Shown: positions 12,101 through 52,212 of the stretch, piece by piece
Layout: each line of letters starts with the position of its first letter
Numbering within the stretch: the first letter of the stretch is position 1
Assembly: GCA_902728285.1 (NCBI GenBank)
Contig: CACVBU010000973.1
Span: forward strand, 186,001 to 250,000
Length of the DNA: 64,000 nt
Source: Clytia hemisphaerica
Lineage: Eukaryota > Cnidaria > Hydrozoa > Leptothecata > Clytiidae
Direction: 5' to 3'
Notes under the pieces: model-generated
The model's input: the letters and a program-made list of their open reading frames with translations, nothing else
The model's database searches: none
What the model was told of the DNA's origin: nothing
Made by a program: the position numbers and the translations under genes

Positions 12101-15100
12101 TAAAATATTTCAATAATATATTTTGGCTTTTATGCGCCCACTAGCTGTGAAAGTAGTATTGTTGTTTTTTGCTCGACTTCTCTTGTTTTTTATGACGTTA
12201 AACAAGTTTCTTATCCACTTATACCTGTTATATAACACGTTTTTTATATTCGATTAGAGTACCTAAATTTTCGCTGAGCTTGGATTTGCTTACTTTTTCA
12301 GCCAATTTCAGCATCGGAGTTCTTATCGACGTTCTTAAATTTCATTTCTTAAAATGCATTCCCAAATGCATTTGCAATTAACTAATGATACTAACGGGCA
12401 TTGAAAAAAATAAAAAAATAAAAATCTAAATGCAAAAATCAAAATAAAACAAAGTTGAAGCGCAGAGGAAACAAAATGGCGGCAAATCGAAGGCTGTTTA
12501 CCAGTTTGTGTTCTTAGTGGCAACCTAAGTGCGAACCTAAACCTAAGTGATTAAAGTTGTTTAATTATTAATAGAATTGAAATATTTTGTCTTTAAAAAC
12601 AAATAAAGATGAGATAAAGCATTATGAGACCCGGAAAACCCGAGTTTCAAAAACTCGAGTTACAAAAACCCAAGTTACGTCGAATGTGACGTCATAAGGA
12701 GACTTCTTAACTCCAAAAAGTTATTTTCTGTCGTTAATAAACTCGAATTATTTTTTTGAAATTTTGTTTTCAAGTTACATAACTCGAAAAGAGAGAGAAA
12801 TGTAAAATAAATATTCCAGTTACCTAACTCGAAAAATTAAGTTACAACATTTTCAACTTATGTTAAAGAGTGACCAAGTTGGCCAAAAACTCCAGAACAG
12901 GCTTTTTCATTTTACAAATGGTGTTTATAGTCTTAGTTCGCTAGACCTTGCAGTTTCTCTATGTTTTAGCTCAAAAAATATTCTTGATTGCGAAGGCCCG
13001 GAAAACCCGAGTTAAAAAAACTCGAGTTACAAAAACCCGAGTTGCGTTGAACGTGACGTCATAAGGAGACTTCTTAACTCGAAAAAGTTATTTTCTGTCG
13101 TTATTTAACTCGAATTATTTTTTTGAAATTTTGTTAACTGGCTGTGGCCCTTGGAGACCAAGGAGACCATATATTGATATCATGAGAGGTGTCTTGGAAT
13201 AATACCTTATTGTAATAGATTAGATTAGACCTTATTAAAAAACCTTATTGAAATCTTGTAAAATCTTGTGAAATTCTTAGTTCATATGGGCTTTTCCAGA
13301 AAAAAAATGAATATGGCAATGGGGGATGGATGATATAACAATTTTCAGCGATTTACCCCCCGGACAAAGTGACTTTTGTTCCCCAGGACAAGCATCAGTT
13401 GACCCCCCGGACAAAACAAATTTACCCCCGGACAAGGCAAATTTTGATGATTTTTTGCTGAGAAATCCCCTTTGTCTCAAATATTTTGTTGTTATGATCG
13501 TGAAGTTTTCAGGGGATGCTTTTTAGAAACCCGTAGGAAAAATTTGGAGTTGATGTCGTTATCACAAAGTCTCTGCGTACTGTTGACCAGTGAAAACATA
13601 CCCTTAACTAAAACTGCAATAAAAATTGAATAAATAGAGGTTTTTCAATTGATTTTCTAAAAGCTTGAAGGTCATTTATCTTATGATTTTTACCAAAATG
13701 TTAAAATTTAACGCTTAAAACTTATACTGAAAAGGTGTAAAATCTTAAAAAATTGATGAAATCATTTGACGTGCGAATAAGTATGAGTAGAACATAGAGC
13801 TAAAAATAAGAATTTTTTTTTACAGACGGTATAGCAGATGAGAAAACAATGATTCCAACAACGAAATCCATAGTCGAACCTATCTCACCGGTGTCTATCA
13901 AAACAGAACCACCAATTCCTCCGTCTCCGCCCGCTGAACCAGAACCGCCCTCAATGCCACCACCACTGCCCGAGAACGAACCACCACCTCCACCTCCTGA
14001 AGACGAAGGTTTGAGAATGAAAGGGTGTTTTTAATTCACTTCTTTTACCAATTGTTTACAGTATATTCCCGCTGTCTCGGCTACAGCCTACCTTTGTGTG
14101 CTTAATTGTAGGGGGCAGAATGAGCGGGGAAGGTGTAATTTTGGAAGAAGATGCGGGGTCATAATTATGTGATATTAGAGTGATTTTAGTGAATTTCCTT
14201 AGGAAGGTTTTGGGGTTGAAAAAATGAAAAATGACTCCCCCCCTACAATCAAGCACAGAAGAGTGCCTCTCAATGCCACACATATTTTTTTTGGTTCCTC
14301 GCAGTAAGGAGATTCTATTCTAGATTTGATTCTGAATATAAGGAATGCTCTGAAGCTAAGCTCTTGGGCTTATGTAGAAAGAGGACAAACCAAGTTTTTA
14401 GTGCATTAGATGTTCACTTTTCTTTTTTTCGCAATATTTTTAACTCTAATATTTTTCTTGTTTTCAGGCGTTGCGAACGAGAGAGACTTGAAATCGGAAT
14501 ACGAGAAAAAGGTATTGATCTCTTTCTCTTCCCCTCCTCTTTTTTACCCAGTTCCCATGAGTTTTTGTTGTGCGAAGACACCATGTTGTCCTACACGCTT
14601 TTTTATAAGAACATCCAAAAATTTTGAAGGCTTCGGATGTTCTTAATTTTCAGAGTTTTATAAGCCTAAATATATTCTTAACTTGGTCTTAATATTTTGA
14701 TTATCGAAGACTTATGTTCTTATATAGATTGTTATTATAAAAAACGTATATATTTCTTTAAATCGTGGGAAACGTCTCAATGCTCTTTTTTATAAGAACC
14801 AGTAAATTTCGGTTGAGGCTTGGCTGTGCTTATATTTCCATGATTTTCAGGCTTAAAATGTTTTGAATATACTAACTCTATACACTTATTGGCTTATGAG
14901 ATATGTGTTCTTGGACTGGAGTCGTTTATCATCCGTGTAATACAGTAATTTGGATGCTGCATGATAATACGGGATAACATCAGGATTGTCCTTGTAATGA
15001 TTTTGAAGCGCAACTTCTTGATAATAAAGATCACTCTTCTCTTTGGGAATAGCCCTTATCGGGGTTTTTGATTTTTCTAAAAAAGCGATGCATTGTGGGA

Positions 15101-18100
15101 TTGTTTCGAGTGTATTACAATAGAATTCCCTCGAGGAATTCCTAAGAGATTTCTATTGTAATACACTCGAAACAATCCCACAATGCATCGCTTTTTTAGA
15201 AAAATCAAAAACTCTGATAAGATGTATTACTTTTGACTCTTACGTTATCTTTGCTTCCTTTTCAGAGCGCAATCAAAAGCAAATCACGAGAGATTTTCGA
15301 CAAGTTGGATTTCCTTGGGATCAACAAGAAAGATATTCGAGCTTTGGTTTTATCATTGATCGAACTTGAGGTAGGCAAGATTCATTTCTCTTGTTTACCA
15401 CATGTTTACTATGAACACTGTATGACAGAATTGAGAATATACTTATTTATTATGTATGATGAATTCACCATCACACTGAAAATTAAAATAAAACGCAGCA
15501 TGACAACCATGACACATTTGATCGATTTCTCTCGTTTTTATTATTTGGCTTCAAAATCCACTAAAAGATTAAAACATACCAAGGCTCTTATGCCGAACAA
15601 AATAGAGTTTGTCGTCAATTGAGTTCACACTCGAATCTGTGGACTTTGTCACTGATTTCGTTTCCACTCTAAAGTCTTGAATTTATTGAAATGCAAATTT
15701 GAACTAATGTGGGAATTTATGGACATTATGGAATTTCTCATTTGCACGCTGAAATGTTATATAAGTTCCTGAAAAATTCTGCTTATTTGGGCACAATTTA
15801 AAAAAAAAAGAAGAAAGGCAACCTTGTACAACAAGATGCAGTTTGTAGGTACGTATAAAACGTCAAACAGGTTTGTTGAAAGGTTACTTTTATTTTGGAA
15901 TTTACCCAAAGACTTTACAACACTGCAAATTTTGGTGTGATTGAAAAAGATTTGAAAAATTTCTTGGTTTTAACGCCGAACTGAAAATGGAAAGACGAGT
16001 TTTTCGATTTTGGGAGAGGTTTTTTGGTTTCCAGGCTCTACCTCTATCGGTGTAAAGTCAATTTTTAGCGACAAATTTTCTACCGCTTTAAGGTATTGTC
16101 AGCCTTATTCAAACATTTTTGTTAAAATTCAAAGCTTTGCCTAAAATATTATGACCAATTTGCAATTATTATAGAAGATTTTATGATTTGCAGTGTTGTG
16201 TGATTATATTTTATGTGTTTGTGTTGTTCACGTTCTGTCTGAATTTCGTCATTTTAAATTCGAATTCCTTTTCAGGATGTTCTGGTTACTGATTGGTCGA
16301 AAACCTTTATCCATTCTCCTTTTTCTTTGACTTATTTTAGATTCGACTAAAAGACTGGGAAGCAGGAGCTCTGTCCACATCATATCTCCTGGAGAAAATT
16401 GGTGAACTTAATAAACAATTGGAAAATCATGAGAAATCTGCTGCCCCTAATGGCTGGGTCTGTCACTGGAGTAGGTAGGTTGACATTTAAATATCAAAAT
16501 GGTCCATCTATGGCTTCTTTGATTTGTTTCATCAAATCTTTCGTTCATAATATATACTTAATATTTTCTGATTCACTTTATAGCCCAAAGCAAGGAATTT
16601 AACAGAAAATTTAGATCGACAGATATTTTTATTCATTGAAAATTTAAGTCAATAATTTAATGTAAAAAGATTAATTTAATTCGTAATTAATATCGTAAAG
16701 ATTCTAATAAACTCAATTTAACTTAATTTATACTATAATTTGTTAGATAATGTGTAATATATAATACATAACATCGTGAATGGTATTATGGTATAATTTG
16801 CGTATGACCCAGAGACGGTAAGTTGTATTTCCTTTGTCTTTTACCCTTTATTTTCAAATTAATTTTCGTTAATATAATATTTGTTAACCTGAACAAAAGA
16901 ATATATTCGCTCAAATCAGGCATTACTTCTGGAATGAAAGGATTTTTGTTTCAATGCACATATCAAATATTTGTCAGCCCAAGGTAAAGATACTTATACA
17001 TTTTTAGTATAAACCAGATTTTTTTACTTTTTGAAGAACTTACTCTTCAGAGTTGAAACTGAAAACTTTAACTCTATCTTTTTAGAGCTGTATGGATGAA
17101 TGAATAGAGAAGTTGACCATTTGAATCAAATTGAGGTAAGTCTTGGTGTTTCCCTTTTCTACTTTTTGAACTGACTTTTTGGTTATTTATTTTACTTTCA
17201 GTGACTACAAGATGTATTACTATTTCGAAACGGCAACCGGAAACTCACAATGGGAGTATCCCGCCTCTAATCAACCGGTGCCCACACAACAACAGGTGCC
17301 CCCTCCGCCCGTTGTTTCCATGCCAACGCTACCTGCACTACCCGCGTTTCCAACGTCACACGTTATGGCTCTTCAAACACCTCAAATGATGATGGCGGCG
17401 CCTGTTGCCCCTGGTTACCCAGGATTGATCATGTCAGCAGCGTTAACAACACCACTTGTAGCGCCGCCCATTCCTGCCATTATACCTGCCATGCCACCCG
17501 CTTTTGCACCGCCTCCACCTCAACCACCACTCCCTTCAACTATCGAAGCCAAAAAACGACCTGCAGGTATCTTTTTAACTATTTACTTTCTTCATAAAAA
17601 TATCAACCTTTATGCTTTCTTCAGCAAAAATTTGTCCTGTAAACGAATTCAGACCTTGTTCCTAAGTAACAGTTCCGTTTCGCACCGAAACGAAATCAAG
17701 ACATTCTATTGGTTCTAAGTGACGTAGAAATTGAATTTAACCAATAGAATGGCTTCTTTTTGTTTCGGAGTGAAACGGGACCGTAGCGTGTGAATGTGGT
17801 CGTAGTTGAACTTTTAGTTTAGTTTTAGTAAACTTTAACTGAACTGTGGTTTCAAACATTTTATTTTCACTTTCTAGCACCAGATACCGATGTTACTACA
17901 GGTATGTGTATGTGTCTTGTTTACCATGTGTTACTTGTAAACAACATTCCTAAACAATGGAATTCACGGAAAAATCATGGAATTCATGTACACGTTTTCT
18001 AATACAGGAACAAATATAAGAACGTATGGCTTTCATGGCCAAAATATTGAGAGCAAGTTACAGCAAGAACAAGAACATTTTTATGCTTAAAACTCAAAAC

Positions 18101-20718
18101 TCAAAACGTCGAGATCATCCCAAGGTTTCGTAAATTTTAGATGTTCTTATAAAAAACATGTGATGATACCACTTATTATCATATTTTTTTCGAATTAAAA
18201 TTCATCCCTGGAAAAGCTTTCTTAATGCTTTCAAATTGTCTTTCTTGTTTGCAGACCCCTATCGAGATCCTTACCGTAGTGTGGCAGCAAAGAAAAAGAA
18301 AGAACTATCGACCTTCCCTGGTAAGAATTTCTCTTTTTGCTCAAAGCTTTATTCCGTGTTTTTCCAGCTTGATGAAATATTAAATTAACTTTTGGCCATG
18401 GGATCTCGAAAACTTCGAAAATAAACTCTCCAACCCCCAAAACCTTAAAAATTGTCAATTCCCAAAAGAACCTTGATCAAAACGTCTTTGTTAATAGTAT
18501 TAGCGATCTTAGCATGAAGGTAGAGCATCCAGCTACGGTGCGAAAGGTTGTGGGTTCAATCCCCAGCCGGGTCATACCAAAGATTCCCAAAATGGTACTT
18601 TGTGCCTCTCTGCTTGATGCTCAGCAACTAAAGAGACGAATCAAGGGTAAGTGGAGAAATCCAGGGAAAGGAGTGGCGCCCTCCCCTACCTTCGGGTAGA
18701 CAGCTACACGAAAAGGGAGCCTTCGGGTCGCCCTCGACTGCGGTCGCAAACTTACTTACTAATAGTATTATGTTTGTTCTACTTTAACTTGATTGAATTT
18801 TGATTTATCTAATCCCTCATTTCGTTAGCGATCATCTAAAGGCGCCCCTTTTTAGAGAAAATTTCTGTGCCCTCGAAAGACTAAATTAAAAAGGTATTTT
18901 GGCCGACCTGATTTCATTAATGGTATTTTTTCTTTGTGTTTTTCAGATCAAATAGCAACACAAGACGTATTGTCTGGCACTTCGAGTCCTATCATTAGTA
19001 GCTCGATCATCGCAGCTGCACCTGCCATTATTAATCGGAATACGAGTCGAGAGTCCAGCCCCGCCTTAATACCCTCCAATGAAAATAATGGAACTTTCTC
19101 ACCAGTCGCCAAAGCTGTAAGGAGAGTTTTCGACTCTTTATCTAATGCAAAAGTTTTTGATCTGATTCCAAATGAACTCTGCCTTTCAAGTACTCTTTGA
19201 AAAGTCATCTTGCTAGAAACAAGTTCCTTCCTAGAAATGATTGCTAAAAGTATATTTTTTTACAAATTTAAAAGCTTTTGGTTGTAGATTTTAATTTACA
19301 TCGTTCATTTGAATTCAGTGATAAGTCTACTATCTACGAGCTACAACGTCCGTCGTTTACATATACGACTTCTACCTTTTATTTCTAGAATATCGCTGCA
19401 GAAACAGTTCTCAACGCCAAAGCTAAACTGAAAAAGGTTTGTAAATCTCTCAAAACCTTTCAATTGTAATGCTCTAAGACTGAAGAGGATAGCTATTGAC
19501 AGAATCTCTATACATTGTCTAACGAAGTTTGGTGTCATTTAAAAGTCAATTTTCCCGTCTTTAGCTCATGTTTTAACCTCTATCAGTGATGGAATTTTAA
19601 GATTTCAAATTTTCAAATGGTTTTTCCACCATTTTCCTTAATCTCTAGAGCATGAAGAATTGTAAATTTTCTCCAGCCCATGGATTGATTTTAGCTTTGC
19701 TTATCTGATTTCCCCTGCAATTTTGAATTTCAAAAACCCTCTATAAAAATTCAAAATATACGGTTTCGATCTTTTCTAGAAAAAGAAGGTGGAGGGTAGT
19801 GGGCTACCTTCGAAGAAGAAGAAACAAGTGACTTCGATGGTAGCAAAATGGCAGACAGTGAAACAAGAAGCAGAAGATGAGCAGAACATCATGATCGAAG
19901 AAGAAGAAAATGAAGATTTTGAAACACAATCCGAAAAAAGAATACAAGAGTGGAAGAGTAAAATTGAACAAAGGTAAAATAGAAACAAACACGTACGATC
20001 TCAACTCATGCCAAGATAAAGTATACCATTACTACATTAAAAAAGAAATCTTGACTAATAGTGTAGTCTAAATGTGCCAAAAGTCATTAACATTGTGCAC
20101 GAAGGCGTACAAACATGAGACTTTTCACAATTGTAGTTTAGGGGTCAAAAATGGATTTAAATCTCAGACCCAAAAAAATGGCACCTGTTTGTGTATTTTA
20201 TAGACCAGAACAGGTTTTTTTCTCCAAAGAATGTCATGTTACATAACGTTGGAAAGCATTTTTCATGTTCGTTTAGAAAAACATTACAATCCATTTCTAA
20301 AAATGAAACCAATAAAGGTATTGTGGAACATTGTTTGAAAAATGACGTGATTGCTGACGTCAGCAAAAACTCCAAGACCACCCAAAGACGTTTATTTTCC
20401 ACTAGCAGCGGCTCACTTAGCAAGTGAACGAACCTTCGCCCGCGGGTCAACTCATACCTTGTGTGAAGGGGATAGGGAAGTTAGTCCAAGGTGCTGACGG
20501 GGCGCTATTTGAAAGTGTCTATAGTTGCGAAATTGGATCATAGAGCCTTCTGCAACTGAACCAAATACTAGCTGCATTTACTTCGAGAAAAATTTGTCTT
20601 GTGTTTTCTGAAAATAGATTTAATTTTTTTTTTCAGCGGTGAAAAAGACTACAATCCAAACTTTCAAGAGATCAAAGGTGATTGGCGTGAACGACTAAAA
20701 CGTAAGACAACAACGTAA
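6200..20718 (+). CDS. FNBP4: Formin-binding protein 4 orthologue, two WW domains, 17 exons
   Basis: FNBP4 is a nuclear WW-domain protein that binds proline-rich ligands, including formins. Exons read: 6200-6275, 6408-6458, 7076-7125, 7777-7939, 8500-9243, 10002-10217, 13826-14008, 14468-14511, 15266-15370, 16341-16474, 17202-17566, 17878-17901, 18255-18320, 18947-19116, 19389-19436, 19780-19973, 20637-20718. All borders are GT/AG, phases agree throughout, and the product is about 904 aa (human about 1017). WW1 (residues about 117-150) contains LLPENWQACLDEQTQCYYYW and ends EVQWYPP, followed by a polyproline run. A conserved helical block (FDKLDFLGINKKDI; LKDWEAGALSTSYL) precedes WW2 (about 581-615: NGWVCHW, YKMYYYFETATGNSQWEYP). 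Proline/alanine-rich linkers follow. The C-terminus MVAKWQTVKQE…KRIQEWKSKIEQ…GDWRERLKRK matches the family end. The start ATG gives the family-like MGK-basic N-terminus. Exon 12 is only 24 nt. Introns are loaded with MITEs and SINEs. Confidence 0.95.
7159..7377 (+). mobile_element. tRNA-derived SINE (family 1, short form) with perfect 11-bp TSD
   Basis: It starts GGGCGTAGTGGTGTAGTGG and has A-box-like TAGTGGTTATCG and B-box-like GATTTCGATACCC promoter sequences. It ends in a TATATCTATATC-type short tandem tail. Perfect target-site duplications ATCTTTCAATC flank it at 7148-7158 and 7378-7388. It lies in FNBP4 intron 3, in gene orientation. A longer relative lies at 52213-52602, and a decayed body fragment at about 20411-20490. 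Confidence 0.9.
8059..8196. mobile_element. MITE with TGGAGTTTTTACAAG ends (copy A)
   Basis: The ends TGGAGTTTTTACAAG and CTTGTAAAAACTCCA are perfect inverted repeats around a 138-bp element in FNBP4 intron 4. It shares its core (TTACTTTTTCTAAAGAACGC, then GTCAT) with the copy at 60127-60255, which shows this is a dispersed family and not a chance hairpin. Confidence 0.85.
9667..9979. repeat. Large imperfect inverted repeat (foldback element), about 135-bp arms
   Basis: The left arm begins TTTAAAGGGATAATCAGATG and runs through TAGGATTTTAGGAAAAA and AATTTTTCGGTGTA. The right arm is its reverse complement with about 10-15% mismatches, ending CATCTGATTATCCCTTTAAA. The whole could fold into one long hairpin. 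It ends 22 nt before the AG of FNBP4 exon 6 (exon starts 10002), so it borders the branch-point and pyrimidine-tract region. No coding content. Confidence 0.8.
10691..11683 (-). CDS. Intronless atypical class A (rhodopsin-like) GPCR
   Basis: An orphan seven-helix receptor of 330 aa in one exon, lying antisense inside FNBP4 intron 6 (10218-13825). Seven hydrophobic segments are visible: TM1 about 13-40 (GGLTN, conserved Asn), TM2 58-84 (LALNISDL, conserved Asp 69), TM3 100-122, TM4 138-160, TM5 163-187, TM6 215-241, TM7 250-272. TM7 carries NSLINPCVY, the class A NPxxY signature. Oddities: the DRY motif at the end of TM3 is replaced by NNY (118-120), no Trp is seen in TM4, and no clear Cys for the usual TM3-ECL2 disulfide is visible in ECL2. 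The tail is short, basic (YRRPRRR) and Ser-rich. Lack of introns suggests retroposition or a lineage-expanded receptor family. Ligand cannot be predicted. Confidence 0.85.
   Translation of the reverse strand: MKTESPLSLMMVYLYLGIAYIPISLIGGLTNIYALYCLVAFKQRNRGRRSQNTSFGNLEILLLALNISDLFMCLGDLPVKIAIYMQNPDMDSKPTFLGYLDAICIWSSSLIVVLIAFNNYLKISSPHNYQDRTPRKRVYTLLVLISAISIIFPAIIFVNLQVNGVLLIALFLATISLLSYLYRMILKVMKNSTNRITNKSNAAEVRDKTIERKVTKNVLIIVVAYMVCSLTALVMLIIFVINPNEETLNLVKFGAVTMTGNSLINPCVYILGNKSYRRPRRRTSNKITVNTGSINVSEQPFPSCSKHNADIKENVGRKCFVVGMIAETMM
11684..13825. other. Rest of FNBP4 intron 6, gene-free
   Basis: Upstream of the nested GPCR (its 5' side) the intron holds no exon I can support. It contains the 139-bp direct repeats described separately, a block near 13350-13440 with four CCCCGGACAA/CCCAGGACAA motifs, and otherwise AT-rich DNA. 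The GPCR promoter would have to lie just above 11683; no distinctive element was seen. Confidence 0.5.
12630..13135. repeat. Two 139-bp direct repeats (12630-12768 and 12997-13135) in FNBP4 intron 6
   Basis: Both copies read CCCGGAAAACCCGAGTT, an ACTCGAGTTACAAAAACC block, then a GTGACGTCATAAGGAGACTT block, then CGAATTATTTTTTTGAAATT. They differ at only a few positions and lie 367 bp apart. The spacer also holds scattered AACTCGA motifs. GTGACGTCAT contains a consensus CRE/ATF site, but as part of a repeat this may be incidental. Confidence 0.8.
14097..14257. mobile_element. MITE with TGTGCTTAATTGTAGGGGG ends in FNBP4 intron 7
   Basis: Left end TGTGCTTAATTGTAGGGGG and right end CCCCCTACAATCAAGCACA are inverted repeats with one mismatch, about 160 bp apart. 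The G/C-run ends resemble those of the element at 27545-27811. No coding content. Confidence 0.7.
14592..14750. mobile_element. TACACG-family MITE, copy 1 (FNBP4 intron 8)
   Basis: It starts TACACGCTTTTTTATAAGAA, then CATCC, and ends with the inverted form ATTATAAAAAACGTATA. The interior contains AAGGCTTCGGATGTTCTTAA and ATCGAAGACTTATGTTCTTA, also found in copies at 21195 and 41145. A related sequence (TTTTTTATAAGAACCAGTA) follows at about 14785. Ends in TA suggest TA target duplication. Confidence 0.8.
15055..15221. repeat. Near-perfect palindrome, 62-bp identical arms and 25-bp loop
   Basis: Arms 15064-15125 and 15151-15212 are exact reverse complements over 62 bp (key block GCGATGCATTGTGGGATTGT). 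A short outer extension (CTTATC at 15055, GATAAG at 15216) also pairs. The loop is 15126-15150. It sits in FNBP4 intron 8, ending 44 bp before exon 9. Absence of arm divergence implies a recent foldback insertion or ongoing arm-to-arm conversion; in transcript form it would be a stable hairpin. Confidence 0.9.
17670..17783. mobile_element. Short foldback MITE in FNBP4 intron 11
   Basis: Left CAGTTCCGTTTCGCACCGAA and right GGAGTGAAACGGGACCGT pair as inverted repeats. The inner ATTCTATTGGTT / AACCAATAGAAT arms pair exactly. It is about 114 bp and non-coding. Confidence 0.7.
17980..18160. mobile_element. Degraded TACACG-family MITE relative (FNBP4 intron 12)
   Basis: It begins near TGTACACGTTTTCTAATACA and ends TTCTTATAAAAAACATGTGA. 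Between these, several AAGAAC motifs occur as in the other copies. The ends are more diverged and boundaries are approximate. Confidence 0.45.
18503..18759 (+). mobile_element. tRNA-derived SINE (family 2) with perfect 11-bp TSD
   Basis: The tRNA-like head reads GGTAGAGCATCCAGCTACGG and has the B-box GGTTCAATCCC, followed by a GGGTCATACCAAAGATTCCC body and a TTACTTACT tail. Perfect target duplications TAATAGTATTA lie at 18492-18502 and 18760-18770. It inserted in FNBP4 intron 13 in gene orientation. The head looks like a tRNA gene but is part of the SINE, not a functional tRNA. Confidence 0.9.
20411..20490 (+). mobile_element. Decayed fragment of SINE family 1 body
   Basis: CACTTAGCAAGTGAACGAAC, CTTCGCCCGCGGGTCAACTC and a GTGTGAAGGGGATAGGG block match the body of the SINE at 7159-7377 with scattered changes. 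The tRNA head and tail are missing. It lies in FNBP4 intron 16. Confidence 0.6.
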
Positions 20719-22681
20719 GCTGAATATTAAGGAGATAATAACAGGAGTTGGCCTGTATATATACTTATTGGTTGGTTCTGGTACGAGGAACACTTAATGG
20801 AAATAAGTGAATGTATGAAAGTTCACTTTAGCATGAAATTACCAAGAGAGATTTGGTCACAATTTTATACAATTTTCCAACACTTACCGAAAAGTGTATG
20901 AGACTTTGGATAAATACTGAATACTTTATTATTCTAGATGGCAATCAGTAAATTTTGAACACTATCAGTTGAACTGAGTAGAGTGTGTTTATCAGCCTTC
21001 GTGGATCGGCTGCGATTGGCTAATAGGTTGAATAAATGTACATAATTTTGTATCTTTGACCTATAGTGAGGTTTTTTAAGGATCTTATTTTTAATCAAAA
21101 TTGATAAAATATTTCTGACAGATAATGGAGAACATTGCTTATAATTTCTTTAGTTTAACTGAACGAAAATTTTGACCATGGGTGTTATTTGTTATACACG
21201 TTTTTTTAATAAGAACATCCAAATTTTTGAAGTCTTCGAATGTTCTTAACTTTTTGAGTTTTAAACCTAAAAATGTTCATAACATGTTCTTATTTTCAAC
21301 ATTTTTTGAGCATTTTTGCCCATTTTTCTAAGAAACCGAAGAGTCGGCAAAGCCTTAAAATATTCTTAACTTGTTCTTAACATTTCGGCCATCGAAGCCT
21401 TATGTTCTTATATAGTCTGTTCTTATAAAAAAACGTGTATTGGGAATTATTGGGAATTGGACAAATATACAAATCTTTTTACGAAAGTCAAGTCTAGACC
21501 CTTACAAAATGAACTAAAATAGTTTTAATATCCTATTTACATAGAGTTAGTTACATATATTTCTAAATTCTAGAAATTCTAATTTTCAAAGTTTATAATA
21601 ACCTTTAACTTAAGACTTTATTCGCACCAAACTTTTTTCCAACGTTCAGCTAACCTTATATTTATATGGATGTTGTGGACTTAAAACTTAAAACCCTAAA
21701 ACAGCGTTGTTTATCAGTCGGTGATATAATGAGGTTTCTAACATGCATGGATGCATAAAAACTGTCCATATAACATATAAACTCTGCACTGATTGAGCAG
21801 TATATAAAAACTATTGATTCCTTATTTTTGTGCTATGAAATGTACGATGACAATGTGTGGGTGTGGAGTATATTTGAATTCATGGTCAGACGATTGATTG
21901 ATTGATGAATATTTTGAGAGGATTATTTCGTTATTGGTTGATCTCATTCCAGATGGACAGACGGAGTGAATTGTCCATGAATTCTGAATATTAATTCGCC
22001 TGAACAAATAATGTGCAATGATTTTATTTTATCACAAATAGACGAATGAATGCAGATGAATGCATGTATTTTGATTTTGATTTGAATGAACTCTGTGTGG
22101 TGGATTAGCTGCACTTATCCAAAACAGAAAAGCGGGTAAATCATGCATGGATTCAAAAAATGCCGTACCCATTACCACTTGCACCACCTTACTAATGGAC
22201 CTGGTACAATCGTTAGCGCTCGGAAACGAGTTAGATGTATTCTGTATAGTGTTTGGTTACATTCAGATCATTGGTGAATGAATGATACGTGCATGGTCAG
22301 TGGTTGGTGGATTTCGTTCGATGTTTGATTTTTTCATGAATGTAGATATTGGTTCAAAGGTTGCACTCATCAACTCTGCAATGAAAAATGAACAAAGAAA
22401 TGACAACTAATTATTACAAAAAAACACTTTAAATATCCTATCCGCTTGATATCAAAGCTGGATAAACCAAATTCACTATGTGAATTTTGTTCCCACTAGA
22501 GAAATCTAATGTTCGTTTTGGAGTTTTTGGTATTCAGGAAATGAAGACAGCTTTGCGAGCAAAATGCAAATCCATGATTGTTAAGTGTTTGAATTCTGTG
22601 GTGTTCCATTTTGCATTATCAGTATTTGATGACATAGTAACCTTGATTTGTTACCAGTATCTAAGAGAACCCTTCGATTCT
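20719..22681. other. Convergent intergenic spacer (FNBP4 3' side)
   Basis: No exon is supportable. AATAAA at about 21031 is a candidate FNBP4 polyadenylation signal. One TACACG-family MITE lies at 21195-21439. The remainder is AT-rich, with many ATGAATG/TGATTGATT-type short repeats between 21880 and 22340. Confidence 0.55.
21195..21439. mobile_element. TACACG-family MITE, copy 2
   Basis: It begins TACACGTTTTTTTAATAAGA, then ACATCC, and ends TTCTTATAAAAAAACGTGTA. The interior GTCTTCGAATGTTCTTAACT and CATCGAAGCCTTATGTTCTT are shared with copies 1 and 3. About 245 bp, flanked by T-TA/TA-T. Confidence 0.85.
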
Positions 22682-25600
22682 TCAAAGCTTGTTTTTTGAG
22701 TTCAAAATCTTGGTCCTGATTTTAGATTTCCCATTTAGCAGGTTGTGGTCCGCTTTTTGTACTTCGTTAATAATCGAACTAATTGCTGTATGAGATAAAA
22801 ATTGTTTTTCCACATCAGGATTCTTGGTGCCTTTCTCATTCAAATGGAGCATGAATAATTTCAAATGTTCTTTCAAATTACTCGTATCGTTTTTTGTTTG
22901 ACTTTTAAACGATGAAAATAATCCAGGTGTGCTTTGTTTGGTAGGTGGTGTCACATCCGCCAAAGACTTCAGAAGAGAACGTTGAAAACTTAAACCAGCA
23001 ACTTTAGTGGTAATCAATGACTTAGCACTACCCATAGTCTCGGTCAATCCTTCAGGAAGTTGTGAAATTTTCTCATCATTCATGGGAGTTCCCAAGAGCT
23101 GACTTATGGAGCTGTCTCCACCAGTTGGTGATAATTCTGCAAATTCTTTCTCGTGGTGATTTCCAGGTGTTGCAAAGTCATTTTCATGCTTAAGACTTAA
23201 GAGTTTATTCTCGTAGTTTGAAATAGTGCTAACATGTGGATTCCCAGTTTCAGTGATTTCAGAACTTCTCCGTTCTCCACTTAAAACTTTCTTTTCAACA
23301 TTACTTGCAAAGCTTTTAGCTAGTAATTCATTCTCACGATTCGATGCATCCATGATTTTTTGTATCGCTTTCCTCTCTTCAGGAGAACCCATCTTATCAG
23401 TGCCTTCGATCATACTCAACATACCTTTGGTGGATTGAATTTAGTATTGATATAATGTTTTATGGAACTAACTTTTAAGAGCATTGGTAACTTTTAAGTT
23501 TAGTTTCTAAACGAAGAATTCAGAACGAGCTTCTCACGACCACGTTTTGAAAACCAAAAAAACAATGCATGGATTTTTTTTTACTTTTTGGGTTTATCAG
23601 CTTTTTTGAATGCCAGTTTCGTAAAATAAAAATGATGCGTGAGAAAACGAAGACATTTTAAAATCTTACCTTTCACTCGATTTGAAATCTCACTCTCCGA
23701 TCTTCGAGCAGCTCCTTCGTCTACTTCAGTTTCTGGCACTTCTCCATGTTGTTCTTCTACGAGAGCGCTCTCCTTTTCATCACCCTCCTCCTGCTGCGAA
23801 TTCGCTTTCTCCTCGAGGCTCTTTTCCTGGTCACCCTCCTTCGTTTGTTGAAGAAACTTACCTACCACTCCATCACTCTTTTCATAGCGCATTGGGCGGC
23901 CGTTTGAATCTAATAAATTGTCTCTCGATGTACCTTGCTCGTCAGGTAAGAATCTAGAGGTCGTGTCTTCTTCTCTAGTCATTTTCTCTCCTTCGTTGCT
24001 AAAGTTTCTCCCCTCTTCACCTTCACGTTCATTCTCCCCTTCATCATATCTTTCTTCGTCTTCACGTGGACCGTCTTCATTAAAGTGTTGTTTATCAACA
24101 AAATGATTTTCATTTTTCGTTTCAACATCTTGTTCCCGATTCTCAACTCTCACATTACGATTCCGAGCGTCTTGCCGTTCATCTTCGTATTCGTTATCCC
24201 GGTTCTCTTCATCGTGAAAATGTCGGCCGTCGGGATGCCTATCGCCTCGAACACGGAACCGCTCGTTTCCTCGAAACGGTGCTTGACTTCCGTGTTCGTC
24301 CCGATCTCGGTCATCGTGATGTCTTCGTTCGTCGCTTTCACTCTCTTCATCTGGCCGATCAAGATTGCGATCTCGGCTATTGAATTCGTGACGGCGGTTT
24401 CCTTTTTGTGGTCCATCTTGATCACTGTCGAACGAATTAAAGGGAGTCATAAACCCACTTAGTGTATTGAAAACAGCCCTTGTGTTTTCCTTGTCGGTTT
24501 TTGTCACCTCAGTCATCTCGCGTGAACATGGGTCGTAACGTTCTCCTTTGATTCGATAGCGTTTTTTATCATATCCGTAATTGCGACGACCGCGAGAACA
24601 AGGCCTGCGCGTGTCTTGCTCTACAGGGGAGACGAATTTTGACAGGTAATTTTCACCAGAAACAATTTCTCCTGGATAAGCTTCAACATGATTATTAGTC
24701 CATTTCATTAGCATGTTCCATTAGCTCGTGACCTCCGTCTGTAAAACCTAGCGATACCTTATAATTCGGGTCTTCAAAATTGATTTTTCTGTCATGGTGA
24801 ACCTGTGGTGCTTCATACTGGTCCCATTTCGCACCATTATCATAGAAGTCTTGCCACTGGCTTGGCGCATGCCCTGTTGAAAATACTGAACTATCTAAAA
24901 CTTCGTTCATGAAATCCCGTTTTTTCGAGAATCTGTCTCATTACGAGATTTTAGTAACTTTTTACGAAATATCTCAGTCAAATTACGAGGAGTCGTTATT
25001 GTTTTACGCGATCCTGGCATTGTTTTTCTTGCATGAATGTTTTGTTTGATTTGTTTCTTATGACAGGTGCAGCCGCATGATTGACAGTTTTGGTTACAAG
25101 GGCAGTTTGTGGGCACGTGTAGGTCGAGTTGGAGGTGTAGGACGAGTTGGGCGAGCTGGACGAGTACCTCGAGTAGGTGGTTCAGTCGGGCGGATCATTG
25201 CATGGCGGGCTGACAGAGATGTCATATTCCGCCTTTTCATTTTTCCTTCTTTGATATTTGCTAATACGTTGTAAAGTCCACTTTCCAGTGTTTTAGTTTT
25301 TTGAATGTTCTTCTTTTGTGTTGATGAGTGAATAGGATCTTTTGTAGTTGCATGTTTTGGCTGAGCATTGGCAAGCGTTTGATAAAGTTTATTGTTCCTC
25401 TCCTTGCTCTCTTTGGTCTCAAAAGCATCTGAAAAAAAAAAGTAAATGTTACAATGACAAAAGCATTTTTTCCATTGGAAAGCTATCATCTTCTCTAAAA
25501 TTTTACGAATGTACTCTTAGGTTCCAAATAAACGGGCCCCCCCCCCCGCTTGTTAATTTTTCGAAAATTTTCCAACCCCCCCCCCCCCCCCGACCTTATT

Positions 25601-28050
25601 AGGACCCCCCCGTTTATTAATCTCTAAGAATATTTTCAGCTGTCAAAGAGAAGGCCCCTTATTTTGCTCTAAATAGCCTGATATTAGCCTATTTTTACCT
25701 TATTTTTGGGTTTCAGAAGTACAATTTCCAACCCCCCCGGCAATTAGGTCCCCCCCCGTTTATTAAAATCTAGAAAATTTTCCACCCCCCCCCCGTTTAT
25801 TCGAACCCCTCCGTTTATTTGGAACCTAAGAGTACATTGTTTTTTTGACCTGTACTCTTGTGGGGGGGGGGGTGTAATAAGCAGATAAAAATCAACAAAA
25901 TTGGGGTTCGGGGTCATGATTAATTGACCTGATTTTGCTAAAAATCCCTAGGAAAATGAAGGTTTTTGGCAAATTTTGGCACTTCCGTGTTCGTCCCGAT
26001 CTCGGTCATCGTGATGTCTTCGTTCGTCGCTTTCACTCTCTTCATCTGGCCGATCAAGATTGCGATCTCGGCTATTGAATTCGTGACGGCGATTTCCTTT
26101 TTGTGGTCCATCTTGATCACTGTCGAACGAATTAAAGGGAGTCATAAACCCACTTAGTGTATTGAAAACAGCCCTTGTGTTTTCCTTGTCGGTTTTTGTC
26201 ACCTCAGTCATCTCGCGTGAACATGGGTCGTAACCTTCTCCTTTGATTCGATAGCGTTTTTTATCATATCCGTAATTGCGACGACCGCGAGAACAAGGCC
26301 TGCGCGTGTCTTGCTCTACAGGGGAGACGAATTTTGACAGGTAATTTTCACCAGAAACAATTTCTCCTGGATAAGCTTCAACATGATTATTAGTCATTTC
26401 ATTAGCATGTTCCATTAGCTCGTGACCTCCGTCTGTAAAACCTAGCGATACCTTATAATTCGGGTCTTCAAAATTGATTTTTCTGTCATGGTGAACCTGT
26501 GGTGCTTCATACTGGTCCCATTTCGCACCATTATCATAGAAGTCTTGCCACTGGCTTGGCGCATGCCCTGTTGAAAATACTGAACTATCTAAAACTTCGT
26601 TCATGAAATCCCGTTTTCGAGAATCTGTCTCATTACGAGATTTTAGTAACTTTTTACGAAATATCTCAGTCAAATTACGAGGAGTCGTTATTGTTTTACG
26701 CGATCCTGGCATTGTTTTTCTTGCATGAATGTTTTGTTTGATTTGTTTCTTATGACAGGTGCAGCCGCATGATTGACAGTTTTGGTTACAAGGGCAGTTT
26801 GTGGCACGTGTAGGTCGAGTTGGAGGTGTAGGACGAGTTGGGCGAGTTGGACGAGTACCTCGAGTAGGTGGTTCAGTCGGGCGGATCATTGCATGGCGGG
26901 CTGACAGAGATGTCATATTCCGCCTTTTCATTTTTCCTTCTTTGATATTTGCTAATACGTTGTAAAGTCCACTTTCCAGAATTTTAGTTTTTTGAATGTT
27001 CTTCTTTTGTGTTGATGAGTGAATGGAATCTTTTGTAGTTGCATGTTTTGGCTGAGCATTGGCAAGCGTTTGATAAAGTTTATTGTTCCTCTCCCTGCTC
27101 TCTTTGGTCTCAAAAGCATCTGAAAAAAAAAGTAAATGTTACAATGGCAAAAGCATTTTTTCCATTGGAAAGCTATCATCTTCTCTAAAATTTTACGAAT
27201 GTACTCTTAGGTTCCAAATAAACGGGCCCCCCCCTCTTGTTAATTTTTCGAAAATTTTCCAACTCCCCCCCCCCCCCCCCCCCCCGACCTTATTAGGACC
27301 CCCCCGTTTATTAATCTCTAAGAATATTTTCAGCTGTCAAAGAGAAGGCCCCTTATTTTGCTCTAAATAGCCTGATATTAGCCTATTTTTACCTTATTTT
27401 TGGGTTTCAGAAGTACAATTTCCAACCCCCCCGGCAATTAGGTCCCCCCCCGTTTATTAAAATCTAGAAAATTTTCCAACCCCCCCGTTTATTCGAACCC
27501 CTCCGTTTATTTGGAACCTAAGAGTACATTGTTTTTTTGACCTGTACTCTTGTGGGGGGGGGTGTAATAAGCAGATAAAAATCAACAAAATTGGGGTTCG
27601 GGGTCATGATTAATTGACCTGATTTTGCTAAAAATCCCTAGGAAAATGAAGGTTTTTGGCAAATTTTGGCACTTCGTAGCATAAAGGTCACAAAATGCCC
27701 CCCCCCCCCATTATAAAGGTCATTATAATTATAAAGTGATATGGGGGTGATTTGTTTCCTAAAAATAGCAAATGACCCCCCCCCCCCCTCATTACTAAGC
27801 ACACAAGAGTAATAAGACTTGAAAGCCCAATTAATCAAAAAGAAAACATTCTCCATTACCATCAAGATTTAGCTCTTTCACGTTATCCAAAACTGAGACA
27901 GGGTTACCTCTTTCTTGAAATAAGATATTCAAACAGGTTGAGTTCTTTTCAATAAAGCTACAATTAATTGTTGTCCAAAAGATTATTACCTGTTCCACAT
28001 AATAGGATTGTTACCAAAAAAGATATAGCTAAAATCTTCGAATACTGCAT
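22682..28050 (-). CDS. Unrecognised secreted Cys-cluster, charged protein; disrupted by tandem duplication
   Basis: I do not recognise this protein. Exon 1 (28050-27990) encodes a 20-residue signal peptide (MQYSKILAISFLVTILLCGT). Exon 2 exists twice: a right copy from 27119, open to 25948 but truncated, and a left copy 25428-23670 with three frameshifts. Exon 3 is 23424-22682. Ignoring the frameshifts the product would be about 852 aa. After the signal come a basic helix-rich stretch, an RPT-repeat (RPTRPTRPTPPTRPTR), a six-cysteine cluster (NCPCNQNCQSCGCTC), then a long Arg/Asp/Glu/His-rich region with RDRDE runs that turns acidic. Exon 3 is Ser/Lys-rich with Leu-containing helices and no cysteines. 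Many dibasic sites occur. Composition suggests an extracellular matrix, granule or processed precursor protein, but that is inference. The exon 3 acceptor (CCACCAAAG) has a weak pyrimidine tract. Confidence 0.6.
25511..25835. mobile_element. C-tract MITE in left duplicate (25-bp perfect terminal repeats)
   Basis: The ends GTACTCTTAGGTTCCAAATA and TATTTGGAACCTAAGAGTAC are perfect inverted repeats extended by AACGG/CCGTT. Between them are runs of up to 17 C alternating with CGTTTATTAA-type segments, all C on the plus strand. The same element recurs at 27201-27537 because of the tandem duplication. It lies in intron 1 of the secreted-protein gene. Confidence 0.85.
27201..27537. mobile_element. 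C-tract MITE in right duplicate
   Basis: Same terminal repeats as 25511-25835. The internal C-runs differ in length (one reaches about 19 C), as expected of slippage-prone homopolymers. Interior motifs CCCCCCGTTTATTAA and CAATTAGGTCCCCCCC are shared. Confidence 0.85.
27545..27811. mobile_element. Foldback element with G-run/C-run arms
   Basis: TACTCTTGTGGGGGGGGG at the left pairs with a C-run and CACAAGAGTA at the right. Internal C-runs and an ATTATAAAGGTCATTATAAT block also occur. The right boundary of the tandem duplication (27675) falls inside it, so the left duplicate (25855-25980) retains only its left part. Confidence 0.6.
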
Positions 28051-28645
28051 TTTGGTGATTTCTTGGGCCTAATCCACTACATCTCCAGGTTAGATTTACC
28101 ATTACTTTGATATAAATCTGTGATTATTTTGATATTAACCTCTGCACAAAATCTAATGCACAGCTTGAGCTTAATTCAATTAACGACGTGATCAGTCAAC
28201 TGTAACTAAACATAGACCTGGTTTTTATATGTTGCTGTTTATTCATAGTCTGTTGAGGATGGTTTCTATCAGATTTGTTTTGAAAAAAGCTTTTTTTCAA
28301 CTCGTTCAACTTACAGTGTTTTTTTGAGAACAGTTAAATAACAGGACCAATGGGATGTTCTATTCAAAATCCATACATGGGTGGGGGCGGTGTGGACACG
28401 AACCTTTTCAAGCAAAAAAAAATTGAAAAAAGTATACCCCTTGCTTGGAAATGGAAAAAAAATTTAAATAAACATTGGAAAAATTATTCTTTCATATCTT
28501 AAAGTGAAGGCGGGCGAACTAAAATCAGTCTTTTACCCTATGAAAGTTTAAAAAACCTTTACCTGGCTGGAAATTCTTCTTCAGATTACTCCCTGGAAAA
28601 GTTTGTTCACCACCCTGTATGGATATAAAATGGAATGGCCCAATA

Positions 28646-33200: not shown

Positions 33201-36200
33201 ACATGTTGGAGGATAAAATGCTCAGAATGTAAAAAGAAAATCATTCTAAAAGTAACTATACTGTTTTCAATTTCAGCACATTTGGTTTTAAAGATGTCTA
33301 AATCTTTTATCGAGTCCTTTACCAGTGGATCCCCTTAAAATCTACATAAAATAGAGATACCCCCTATCTGAAAATTTAGGAGGAATTTGAGGCTAGAACT
33401 TTGTGTGTTAAAAGTAGGCTGTCTATGGTTTTCTTCTCTAGCAAAGATGTTTTGTAGAAACCAGTTTTCAGTTTTTCACGAAGAAGTGAAAAAATACTCA
33501 TTTAGCTATTTACTCTTAAAAATGGTTTTTGAATAACTTCGAAATCCTCGAAATCAGGTATCTTGCTAAAGTACCTTTATAAGAGGTTGTAAAAAAGTGA
33601 ATTAAACAATATTAAATTAAGTTTGGTGGCTAAGAGAGCCCGAAATCCAACTTTGTAGGTTTTAAGGGGTATCCACTGGTATAACCGATTTAATTCGTAA
33701 GCTTCAACAGAGCGCTTAGAAACACTAAGAAAACATACTTTAATTTTGTTAGGGAAAGCAGTATCGATCATCATGAGATCCGTCAAGAACGTCCCCAGGT
33801 AAGGTACTGTACCATGTGTCACACCCTGGAAACGAGGAGTAAATAAGAAGATTATATTAGTTGATAAGATTTCTTGAAGCATTTGATTGAGGTCATTGAG
33901 AGCTTTGGAAGAAATATTCTGAAAACCTCCCCTGACACTATTCATACAAAGTGTTTATTATAGTATCAATAGATCAAAAACTGTTTGAAATAAAAGTGTA
34001 TAATCGAATGAGGAGTATAAATTTCATACCTCTTTCATGAGCGATTCTCTTTTAGATTTGGTCCTTCGTAATGAGCTTTTGGAATACGTTGAATATTTCG
34101 ACGTTCCCTCCTATGAAAATAACAAACAAACTAAGTAAGTTGTCTCATTGACAAAGCAAAGGTTTTCAATCACCTTCAAGGCATTTCGGTCATCTGAATT
34201 ATCTGAGTGACAGTGACAGTGACAGTGACAGGGCAAAAGCTTATTAAGGAAAACATTCCACTGAGAAAAATCTAACTGTACTTTTGTGAAGGTCTACGAT
34301 TCAGACTAACATTCTTTTAAAGATATTTTAGTTTAGGCTGTTAGAATCACGTGCACACAAACAGTAAATTTATCACTTTGGGATTCAGGTGGGTCTAGAG
34401 GTTTTGATCGGGTTTTCGAAATCGATTTCTTACCATAACAAGAAGCTCACGAAATGCTTTGTTATTCAATTCACCAGAAAAAATATCTTGCATATCTTGG
34501 TACAACTCATGGCTTGATCTATGGTGGTAAAAATAAAACAAAAATTGTCAATATTCTGTGACTTGACTGTATTTCATAGTAGTAATGATAATTATTTTGA
34601 TTGGGTAACAAAGCCACTTAAATCAGGTATCTAGGGAGATTTCAAAACTTACTGTACTATCTTATGATAAATGCGAGACACGCTCTAGTACAGAGTATGC
34701 AAGGTATGGATCGCTTTGGTTTAAGTAAACAAGTAATACATTTGACTTACTTTGAAACTAGTTCCCAGGACCTCGGTAAACGATAAATGGCAGATGACTG
34801 AAGACCAGAAATAACTGCTTTCAGACTGGAAAAGTTTTTCAATTGACGAAGTTCCTACATTTTTGAAAAAAAAGAAATTCGGTCATGACATATGTGAGAT
34901 ATAATAGAATACAATGTTTCTTTTTCGGGCGAAATCGAATTGAACCCTTGGATGAAGATCCACATCAATATGAGTTTTTAAGAATTCATTCTGAATGACT
35001 TATATATAGATAGTTTACATTGCGTGGATTAATGGGCCATTGCAGGGCAATTTTTTAATGTTGAGGGTACAGTTTTTGGAAGATCAACCCCAGACTCTTG
35101 ACAAACTTTTTAAGTAGCCCCTTTTATTTTTCACGAAATTTCACTGACCATCCTCCCCCCTGGATTTTTCAAGTTTGCTTGCAAAGGTGGCATCCCCGGG
35201 AAGGAAAAATATGACATAGCAGTTTTTTTTTTGAACAGAACGAGATTAAACTCAGGTATTCATGTAAACTAACTGGTCAGTCAGTCATCATTTTTGTTCG
35301 GACCAAACGGAGACACCTGTCATTACAGTATCCTAGACAATTCATTTAAAGGATCATCTCTGAGATCCTCATTGCTAATGGTAAGGATTAAGAGGAAATC
35401 TCATAACTAAAATAAAAAAAAAGAAAACGAAATAGGTTGCAACTGTCACATACACCCGGATAAAATGTAACATCAGGAAAAAGACATTTAAGCGTAATTT
35501 CCGACCCAATCTAATTATGAGTATATCAAATTTAGCCTTTATGCCGCTTTTGATGTATGATTTTCATTGATCAATAGATGAATTAATACAACTTTCTGAA
35601 CGGAAATTGAGATTGATTAATAGGTGACATCTTGGATGACTCATGGTCGTCAGAATAAATCAATTTCTCTCACAGGAAGATTCGATGGGATTTTGGATAA
35701 TAAATCCATCTTTCCGGGTGATAATTTGTGACTAGACTCATAGTAAAGTTTCATTTCAGATATTATAATAAGCAACTACAACTGTATTCAATACCCTCAT
35801 AATAAATGAAAAACACTACAATTTTAGACAAAATATTTGAGACAAAGGAGATTTCCCTGCGAAATTTTAAACATCACAACTGAATTTTAAGCGCGTTACA
35901 CTACGTTTGGGAAGTATAGCTTTAACTTAGGAACTTAGGATCTCAAAATTGTTTCAATAAAGCTGAGAATATCGCCCAGAAGCCAATCAATCCTTCATAA
36001 ATCGAAGTATCTAATGAAATAAAGTGTACTAAAATCGCGTTTCTCACCAGAACTCTAAATTTTGCAAAACGTTAAAATAAATATAAATCTCAATATATTT
36101 TGACCAAGATTATAGTAGTGACTATGTGGAGGTGGAAATTGATTTCTATCCTTACCAAAGCGATTTCTAGCCATTTCGTGATAGCTTTGACTCGAGCATT

Positions 36201-39200
36201 CGTCGTGTGTTCTTTGGATTTCTTTTCTTTAGCGTTTAAGATGGTGGAGATAACTTTGAGGGAAACAGCATTGAACTGATCGACTGTCAGTTTGATGGAT
36301 TGTGCCTTGGATCCTTTGGATGCGTCACGTTTTCCCCAAAACGAGGCCATGCATTCACGCGGCACAACACGCTGGAAAAGTTCCTGTGGAATAAAAAGAT
36401 TATAAAATATATAGACCATTTCATAGTCGCAAAGCGTAATGGGTAATCAGGACCAGTGCACGCTGATGACAACTTACTATTGGTCCAAAGTTTTGAAAAA
36501 CTTTTAAGATTTTTTGCGTCTGGCCAACTGGAAGTCGTTACTAGAAAAATCGATAACCAGTCCTGATTACCCATAATTCATTTCGACAGTGAAACGGCCT
36601 ATTACAACAGATAAATTACTAATTACCAGTTAGGCCTGGCTGAAGGATTCATTGCATTCGAGCCAATAAAAGTCAAATATTTAATCATTCGAAATTCGAT
36701 CTGTAAAATGCTTATTTTTGGTGAATTCCATTGGAAAAATTAACTCTAGAGGGCCATAATCGACATCGATAGCTAATTTAATAAATTTGAAAAAAATAAA
36801 TTAAAAAAAATATTTTTTAAAGTATTGACATCATCAATAGTGGTCAAATTCACTTACGGCATCAATGAGAGTCAATTGAATAGCCACCAATTCAGAAGGG
36901 AAACTAAAGATATCGAGTGAATCGATATATCCATCGATGAAATCGTTTCTCGATTCGCATGTACAACCCACTACTGACGTGCACGAACAGAATTTGAACA
37001 TCAACGGTCCTGTGAGAAGAGAGAAAAGAAAGTTTGATCACGAATCAGCTGTTAACATAGTTAAATTTCATCCCTGATTTAGTTCACAATTTGGTTCTAA
37101 ATCTTTGGAATTGGATTTGAAGTCTCGCAATCTTTTGAATTCACGATGCAAAATTTCGATCATTAGATCATTCTAAACTGTTTAACTCATTTTTTTTTTC
37201 ATTTTAAGATTCTAATAGCGCATAACCACTAGCCCTAGCTTCGAAAATCATACATTAAAAGCGAGCGCTCTACTACACCCATCGATTTACAACAAAATTA
37301 TAAATTGGTTGATATTTCTCTCGGTTCGATAATGGAAACTCATCAGTAATTAGACCCCTGAAACAATGGAAATTGTGCTTTGTCACTAGTTTTTTTCTAA
37401 AACCTGATTTTGGTACAGTCAAAAAAACATGTCCTTAGACACTTAAGGAAACTAGTTTAAGTCCATCACGGTACTGCTTAAACTAGAATTCACTTTATAA
37501 AAGATGTTCAGGATTCGAAGTTGGAAGTTATGAGATAGGGTCTCTACTTGCGCGTGCTTCGATCGCACATTTTCGAGCAAAGCTTCCACGCTATTGGTCA
37601 AAAGAAAAATGAAACAACTCCAGTGGCGCGATCTGACGAAATGGTTGAAAAAGTTGAAATGTGTTCAACTTTTTTTTCGAGCGCGCTACTTTTTTATGAC
37701 GTAATCTTTTTTCCAAGCAAAAAGGATTGAAGCCAAAAGGTGCAATCACAGCGCGCGCAAGTGGAGACCGGCCTTTAAATGCTTACTTTCATCGTTGAAA
37801 GGGCTGACAGTTAGCGTGTTCAATTTCCCATCACAAAGCATCCATAATTTCTCTACAACAGGAATATGTCTCCGTTGGGCGGCAAAATGTATGAGGGCGT
37901 TTAGCGAGGCGTATTCGGGTGGTTCATCAAAATCACGTGGGTATTGCTCGATCCATATCCTTGCTACGGAACAGATCCGCCTGAAAAATAAAAATAATAA
38001 AATTCAATTGGTCCATCTATATTTCAACATGATAATTTACCAGTGATGTAATTATGTTTTATTAGATTGAACCACTGACCTTTATATATCCCTGGACCAA
38101 GCTATATCCGCCATCTTTGATCGAAGTTTTTTTTGAATTGGTACCCGTAAAGAAGCTATTGCAGTGTTAAAAATTAACGTCTAACGGCGCTACATCATCA
38201 AAAGTTTTCGAGGGAAAGTAGATCTAGCGCTCTCGATGCTATTGAGTAGTGCCGCCATTAGGGTACCACTTTTCAAAAAACTTTGATCAAAGATTTAGCT
38301 TGGCCGGGATTGAGAAACTTGGTTCAGGGATATATTAAGGTCAGCGGATTGAATGGAAATTAAAATAGATCTGGTTTTCGAGGTTCATTTGACCGAAATT
38401 CCTATTACTGATTATCTTTCGGACCGACATCATCCCTGGACGGGATTTCCGAGACGAAAAATTTGCAACACTGTAAGCAGGCATAAAGGGTCGATGTATT
38501 TCGCTCTTTTTTAATTCGAATTATAGAAAGTTCAAGAAATGAAATGAAGCAGACCAACCAATCAGAATTGTTCGAGTTACGGAAGTTCTTTTCTCTAACG
38601 ACCAGTTTGGTGAACTTTTGACTTTTTGTAGGCCATGTTTTATCAATCTTATTTCGAAATTATAAATTTCAACTATTTGTTTGGAAACCTGCCAGACAAA
38701 AAGAATTGCGGTTGAAACGCACTCCCACTTTTTATCGATTTGTCGTAATTTAGTGAATTTTAATTACTGGAAAGGGAAGGTTATAACTGACATCATCTTT
38801 GTCAACTTTTGCACTTTCGTAAGCGGGAAGAAAGATAATATTTGACTGAATAAGTCTCCAAGAATCAACTCACTTCTTCAAAAAATGTAAACAAACTCAT
38901 CAAGACGGCCGTATTGTAAACAAACTAATTACAACAGAAAAGCAGTTACCCAACAAAATAAACGACATTAGATTACGTAACACAAAGTTATGACATGGAC
39001 ATCCAGTAAATATATCAACTTTGTAAATCACTTCCGGGAATCGGCAATTATTGACGTTTTAATTCCGTTAAAATGAAAGTTGACGACCTTTTCTTACTAC
39101 ACCGCCGCCGCCGCGGAGTAATCACAGTTACACAAGATCATGCCTCTTTAACCCTCGTTAAAATTCTTTTCGATGCACAAAAAAAACAGAAATTAATTCA

Positions 39201-51556: not shown

Positions 51557-52212
51557 CTTGAGCATAACGGTATCAAGAGGCCCCTTCTTCGTGATTGCGT
51601 GATCAGAGGTCAAAACGTAATCGCTATTTCGTATTTGAAAGATTTTTGAGACCGTGATTATCCAAATATTTTACTGTTTTACGTGAGCGTAATTGAAGAC
51701 AAAAAGTTGCGTGATATTTTGATCAGAGTTACCGCTGGTGAGTCTCTATCAATACAATAATATACTTAATAATAGCGAGTTTATGTATTTGCACTTTAAG
51801 GACGGTGAAGTGACTACTGAATCAATTTGGAATACCGCAGTTCTGCCCAAAAGGTTAATTTTTTTACCGTGCCAAATCTCACTATAGCAACAAAAATAAT
51901 GACAAAACAGTTTCTCTTATAGGAAGGCATTGACCGGTTTGATTTCGAAAAATGTGAAAGCTGGTTTGAAAAGGTGACTGTAGAATTAGTTCAAAAGTAA
52001 TGTTTTTCTGAAAAAGTAAATTTACTAATTCCTTGTCTCTTGTAATTTAAAATGTTTATGATTTAAAGATGAAAATTTAAATTATTTGGAACGGCACTCA
52101 CTAATATCTTTTCAACGAGTCTAGAACTACTTTTTACTTCAAATTCTATCAAAAGTGGCAGCATTTTTTCATTCTTGTAAACTTTAGTTTCTATTAGCTA
52201 ATGATAACCTTT

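Follow-up and report, generated by a model that had tools for sequence, protein, structure and literature searches.

On the minus strand of a 64,000-nucleotide window of Clytia hemisphaerica contig CACVBU010000973.1 (the window being the whole stretch of DNA that we analyzed), three exons with compatible splice phases can be laid out: exon 1 at 28050-27990, a large exon 2, and exon 3 at 23424-22682. They probably make up a real, locally duplicated animal gene whose kind is known, that of orphan secreted proteins. The acceptors at 27119 and 25428, which the initial annotation had given as the junctions for exon 1, both exist, but they are a single acceptor seen twice, once in each unit of a direct tandem repeat of 1.69 kb, a duplication that had been overlooked. 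Our preferred reading, to which we assign a probability of roughly 0.37, is a single-copy three-exon gene of which one segment was written twice in the assembly, and whose product would be a granin- or matrix-like secretory cargo or scaffold. The locus is made up of the following parts.

27990..28050, minus strand: exon 1, 20 codons plus one base, with a Lys near the start, a hydrophobic core and then a phase-1 donor.
25981..27670, minus strand: repeat copy A, comprising the 3′ part of intron 1, acceptor 27119 and the first 1.1 kb of exon 2, and stopping at the breakpoint.
25993..27119, minus strand: open part of exon 2 in copy A, the split Asp codon plus 375 codons.
24286..25980, minus strand: repeat copy B, with the same content and acceptor 25428, its frame broken near 25113, 24925 and 24701 by run-length differences.
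23670..24297, minus strand: rest of exon 2, 209 codons, rich in Arg, Asp, Glu and His and then acidic, with a phase-1 donor.
22682..23424, minus strand: exon 3, the end of the split Gly codon plus 246 codons, rich in Ser, Leu and Lys, with the stop codon TGA.

Exon 1 encodes MQYSKILAISFLVTILLCGT plus one extra base. The codon split between exons 1 and 2 is GAT (Asp), and that between exons 2 and 3 is GGT (Gly). Every intron has GT and AG borders, and the phases agree, as had been described; the acceptor of exon 3 lacks a clear pyrimidine tract and looks weak by eye. Neither a stop nor a frameshift interrupts exon 1, copy A up to its breakpoint, the rest of exon 2, or exon 3. All of the parts listed in the initial annotation are present, namely a signal-like exon, RPT repeats, a six-Cys cluster, an Arg/Asp/Glu/His-rich stretch, an acidic tail and a Ser/Lys-rich end. 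The phases and open frames of its gene model likewise hold, but the model is less clean than claimed, with a tandem duplication and a broken frame in copy B.

The repeat unit starts inside intron 1, of which it takes in the 3′ part, and ends 1.1 kb into exon 2. Its two copies adjoin without a gap in a window that contains no N, and the breakpoints have five bases (GAAGT) in common. Between copies A and B there are 11 substitutions (two of them beside poly-G gaps) and eight insertion or deletion events, by our count with the five-base end of the alignment excluded. Each of the eight events either alters the length of a run or sits in poly-G; two include one further base as well, one is the doubling of a single G, and copy B is the longer in seven. 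The exon part carries eight substitutions in six codons, five of which change the amino acid, together with three frame-breaking insertions, all in copy B.

It is copy B, not copy A, that is joined to the remaining exon 2 and its donor; copy A is open, yet truncated by the breakpoint. The long protein described earlier is consequently not what the assembled contig yields: splicing exon 1 to 27119 in copy A gives 410 amino acids, with a stop in repeat-rich intron sequence, and splicing it to 25428 in copy B gives 131 amino acids, with a stop that follows closely on the RPT repeats and precedes the Cys cluster. On either of these readings, the assembled contig encodes no intact three-exon product. 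Counting the unit once leaves about 852 amino acids without a stop (20 + 1 + 375 + 209 + 1 + 246), a figure that is the arithmetic sum of separate pieces and not the length of a sequence that was built.

The duplicated unit also holds all eight occurrences in the window of the G-homopolymer motif AATAAACGGGGGG (at most one mismatch), against 0.04 expected. These sites, at 25606-25819 and 27300-27511, may be an internal repeat that aided duplication or misassembly.

We lean towards an assembly or consensus error as the likely origin of the duplication. Because copy B leads into the remainder of exon 2 and the donor, a real duplication would be expected to keep copy B and to free copy A to decay. 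What we find is a clean copy A and a copy B broken by run lengths only, which agrees with false duplication of a segment whose read errors were left uncorrected. The 1.69-kb intron 1/exon 2 segment could have been duplicated in the assembly by read errors or by two alleles, with the second copy retaining run-length errors that were not corrected. Several observations pull the other way. Among the sources of false duplication, passages of PMC9516828 name long-read errors and divergent alleles, with alleles as the main source and read error as the minor one, and they give gaps between the duplicated pair as a main mark of such errors, whereas here the copies abut and no N occurs. Eleven substitutions are more than read error alone suggests, and five common breakpoint bases are what a real microhomology-mediated duplication would leave; taken together, the GAAGT overlap and the substitutions fit either a real event or two alleles.

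If the tandem duplication were real, whether fixed or heterozygous, the locus would be damaged, with copy A lacking the downstream end of the exon and copy B lacking the frame, and would either be a pseudogene or yield shortened secreted proteins, about 410 or 131 amino acids long. This alternative, rather unlikely in our estimation, draws on the shared breakpoint bases, the gapless join, the substitutions (with their five amino acid-changing codons of six) and the missing intact product. It is less easily squared with damage that is not seen outside copy B and that consists of run-length changes alone, in the very copy expected to be under selection.

The open frames themselves are long. Stop to stop, they measure 396, 379 and 252 amino acids, and the longest open frame in each of 30 Markov-3 random 64-kb sequences averaged 150 amino acids with a maximum of 188; the three long frames are beyond chance expectation. 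Codon usage was also tried as proof of coding and was set aside as uninformative, the exons not being clearly separated from other frames. Among the 223 open frames that reach 60 amino acids, the three coding pieces rank at 54, 70 and 51% by synonymous-codon score and at 86, 98 and 88% by full codon score, with another frame scoring equal or higher for two of the three.

For the signal exon we used a crude hydropathy rule, which was set after the exon had been seen. By this rule, exon 1 is the sole signal-peptide-like first exon with the right phase on either strand of the window. At least one comparable exon occurred in 17 of 300 Markov-2 versions of the upstream 4.5 kb (5.7%), so the evidence for a signal exon is good, not overwhelming, and it supports the earlier suggestion that the product is secreted. 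Two short motifs flank the gene.

28224..28229, minus strand: TATAAA, resembling a TATA box, some 180 bases ahead of the start codon; a pattern only and not evidence of function.
22023..22028, minus strand: first AATAAA past the stop codon, a possible polyadenylation signal judged by motif only.

A scan of the 250 bases ahead of the start shows four upstream ATGs. The ATG at 28102 begins a frame of 38 codons (28102-27986) that runs across the proposed start codon in a different reading frame, a feature that sits poorly with our gene model and could damp translation or mean a different first exon. Together with the comparable exons in randomized sequence, it is the ground for supposing that exon 1 is foreign to the gene and that the long frames code for a charged protein of the cytoplasm or nucleus whose first exon is a different one. 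We consider this highly improbable, given that the rule picks out no other such exon in the window and that exon 1 has the right strand, phase and place and is preceded by the TATA-like box.

The predicted protein contains four short features of interest.

26920..26928, minus strand: Lys-Arg-Arg, a possible proprotein cleavage site ahead of the RPT and Cys part.
26806..26883, minus strand: RPT repeat stretch, with DNA periods of 9 and 18 bases across part of it.
26755..26799, minus strand: six-Cys cluster C-X-C-X3-C-X2-C-X-C-X-C, followed by His-Lys-Lys.
24241-24249, minus strand: one copy of RGD, within the acidic rest of exon 2.

Exon 2 copy A encodes eight Cys in total, six of which fall within the 14-residue cluster, where they form three CXC motifs (CPC, CGC, and CTC). 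When the exon-2 copy A protein was shuffled 20000 times, six Cys never fell within 14 residues; we chose this test only after seeing the cluster. The cluster lies between Lys-Arg-Arg and Lys-Lys, and these two basic sites are 56 residues apart. Such framing, with most of the Cys gathered inside it, would suit the precursor of a secreted Cys-rich peptide, in which cuts at the two sites would free a 56-residue piece with the RPT repeats and six Cys, and the charged remainder would be a carrier. This interpretation is very unlikely: 17 dibasic positions are scattered across exon 1 and copy A, so that the framing may be chance, the tight Cys spacing would leave little room for an ordinary three-disulfide fold, and no family match was obtained.

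The acidic rest of exon 2 consists of 29.7% Asp plus Glu and has an isoelectric point of 4.63. An acidic protein of the extracellular matrix or associated with mineral, binding calcium and cells and using the RGD as an integrin site, would account for this composition and for the single RGD within it. RGD easily arises by chance in a stretch so rich in Arg, Gly and Asp, however, and Pfam gave no match, which makes this possibility quite unlikely.

In agreement with the initial annotation, which could match the protein to no family, Pfam returned none for any of the three pieces at E up to 10 (HMMER filters discard most weak matches). The best PDB matches had E values of 0.92 and 0.35 for two pieces, with none for the third, and were judged to be at chance level. 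Short patterns were matched in 11, 53 and 1 stretches of IMG/VR (viral; two of three pieces searched) and GTDB genomes (prokaryotic; one of three pieces), and tblastn confirmed no locus in these viral and prokaryotic collections, which could hardly reveal animal homologues. As paralogues, the window offers the duplicated copy only, plus a chance-level match at 18195-18377 (E 0.12); ARAGORN found no tRNA there, and no Rfam match reached the gathering score. Literature searches gave chance words only for the RPT string, nothing for the Cys-spacing string and, for metallothioneins with a signal peptide, only plant work, a result that does not show the protein to be unpublished. That the gene represents a new animal family of secreted scaffolds, in which an RPT linker and a long charged tail go with six Cys in a compact CXC-type cluster for metal or disulfides, and which is confined to one clade and perhaps to one cell type, seems to us unlikely.

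In the preferred single-copy reading, the product of about 852 amino acids would enter the secretory pathway by its signal peptide, would be largely unfolded, and would most likely act as cargo or scaffold of secretory granules or of the extracellular matrix, with restriction to a lineage as our best guess. Its basic Pro/Thr and Cys-cluster head may serve disulfide cross-linking or metal binding. The long, acidic, charged tail may bind calcium and, by analogy with chromogranins, could form condensates with cationic partners in the mildly acidic late secretory compartments. By charge-hydropathy analysis, two of the three pieces class as disordered. Counting against such a product, exon 3 lies just on the folded side (0.425 vs 0.418), and the 209-residue acidic piece has only one dibasic site. 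Single-sequence AlphaFold models of exon 3 and exon 2 copy A had mean predicted local distance difference test scores of 46.0 and 46.3, respectively, and the predicted template modeling scores of the two models were 0.20 and 0.16; these low values are weak evidence of disorder, since AlphaFold run on a single sequence often models poorly.

Animal genomes commonly encode orphan secreted proteins, and a further example is no surprise by itself; as a marker of a clade-specific cell type or matrix, the protein would be a useful handle. A gene model drawn across the tandem repeat conceals that neither assembled copy yields the product, and for annotation or expression counts at this locus the copy number has to be settled first. 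Part of the oddity of the gene may be assembly error.

Elsewhere in the window, Pfam recognized pieces of a Cys-loop receptor, a rhodopsin-type G protein-coupled receptor, a WW-domain protein, a RasGEF protein and a CCCH zinc finger, as well as Ku_C in a match below the cut-off. Such content would suit an animal genome.

41818-42117 and, weakly, 37749-38003, minus strand: RasGEF_N of the RasGEF protein (Pfam).
36093-36446 and, below the cut-off, 33580-33954, minus strand: RasGEF of the same protein (Pfam).

Several stretches look repetitive. The minus-strand frames 7149-7382 and 52187-52405 have words in common, such as MAWVDPGEG and STITTTPLR, and are likely a dispersed repeat; its derivation from a tRNA, as a short interspersed nuclear element, is a guess, with no tRNA reported by ARAGORN. 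The minus-strand frames 14467-14649 and 41066-41242, both of which contain LRTSE.FK.FGCSYKK, are likely copies of another dispersed repeat. The sequence FYCNTLETIPQCIAFLEKSKT occurs in both 14889-15152 (minus strand) and 15124-15366 (plus strand), which are adjacent inverted copies and perhaps a fold-back element. A long low-complexity open stretch rich in Lys, Gln, Ile and Ser at 53725-54123 is probably a simple DNA repeat.

We compared the predicted protein with four known systems. Metallothioneins resemble it in the three CXC motifs of the 14-residue cluster, but Pfam, which includes granin and metallothionein models, gave no match here, and a signal peptide and a frame of about 850 residues would not fit a metallothionein. 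SIBLING-type acidic RGD proteins are alike in being acidic and of disorder-type composition, with one RGD here, and differ in that no Pfam match was obtained.

Minicollagens and other structural proteins of cnidarian nematocysts are alike in a signal-like exon, a possible propeptide with a basic end, and a Pro-rich stretch beside six Cys. Their genes are often taxonomically restricted, according to passages of PMC4195985 and PMC2687796, and the latter describes taxonomically restricted genes for secreted proteins in Hydra nematocytes. A search of all three pieces found no match to the canonical Cys-rich domain (CXXXCXXXCXXXCXXXCC), no collagen-like GXY run of at least three, and no PPP of the kind that flanks a collagen part; the RPT stretch contains Pro, with no collagen part beside it. 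Missing GXY repeats, polyproline runs and the canonical Cys-rich domain rule out a canonical minicollagen as defined in the relevant part of PMC4195985. The missing domain alone does not exclude group 3 minicollagens, because in the account of them given there the Cys patterns vary at both ends.

Granins such as chromogranins A and B differ from the predicted protein in two respects: no Pfam match was found here, which is a further point against a granin-like product, and the acidic piece has just one dibasic site. We know of no granin counterpart of the basic Pro/Thr and six-Cys head. The likeness lies in a probable signal peptide, in length, in a disorder-type composition of two of the three pieces, in an acidic stretch and in dibasic sites. 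Passages of PMC9526250 report droplet formation by chromogranin B at pH 6.1 and describe its acidic stretches as potential calcium sites.

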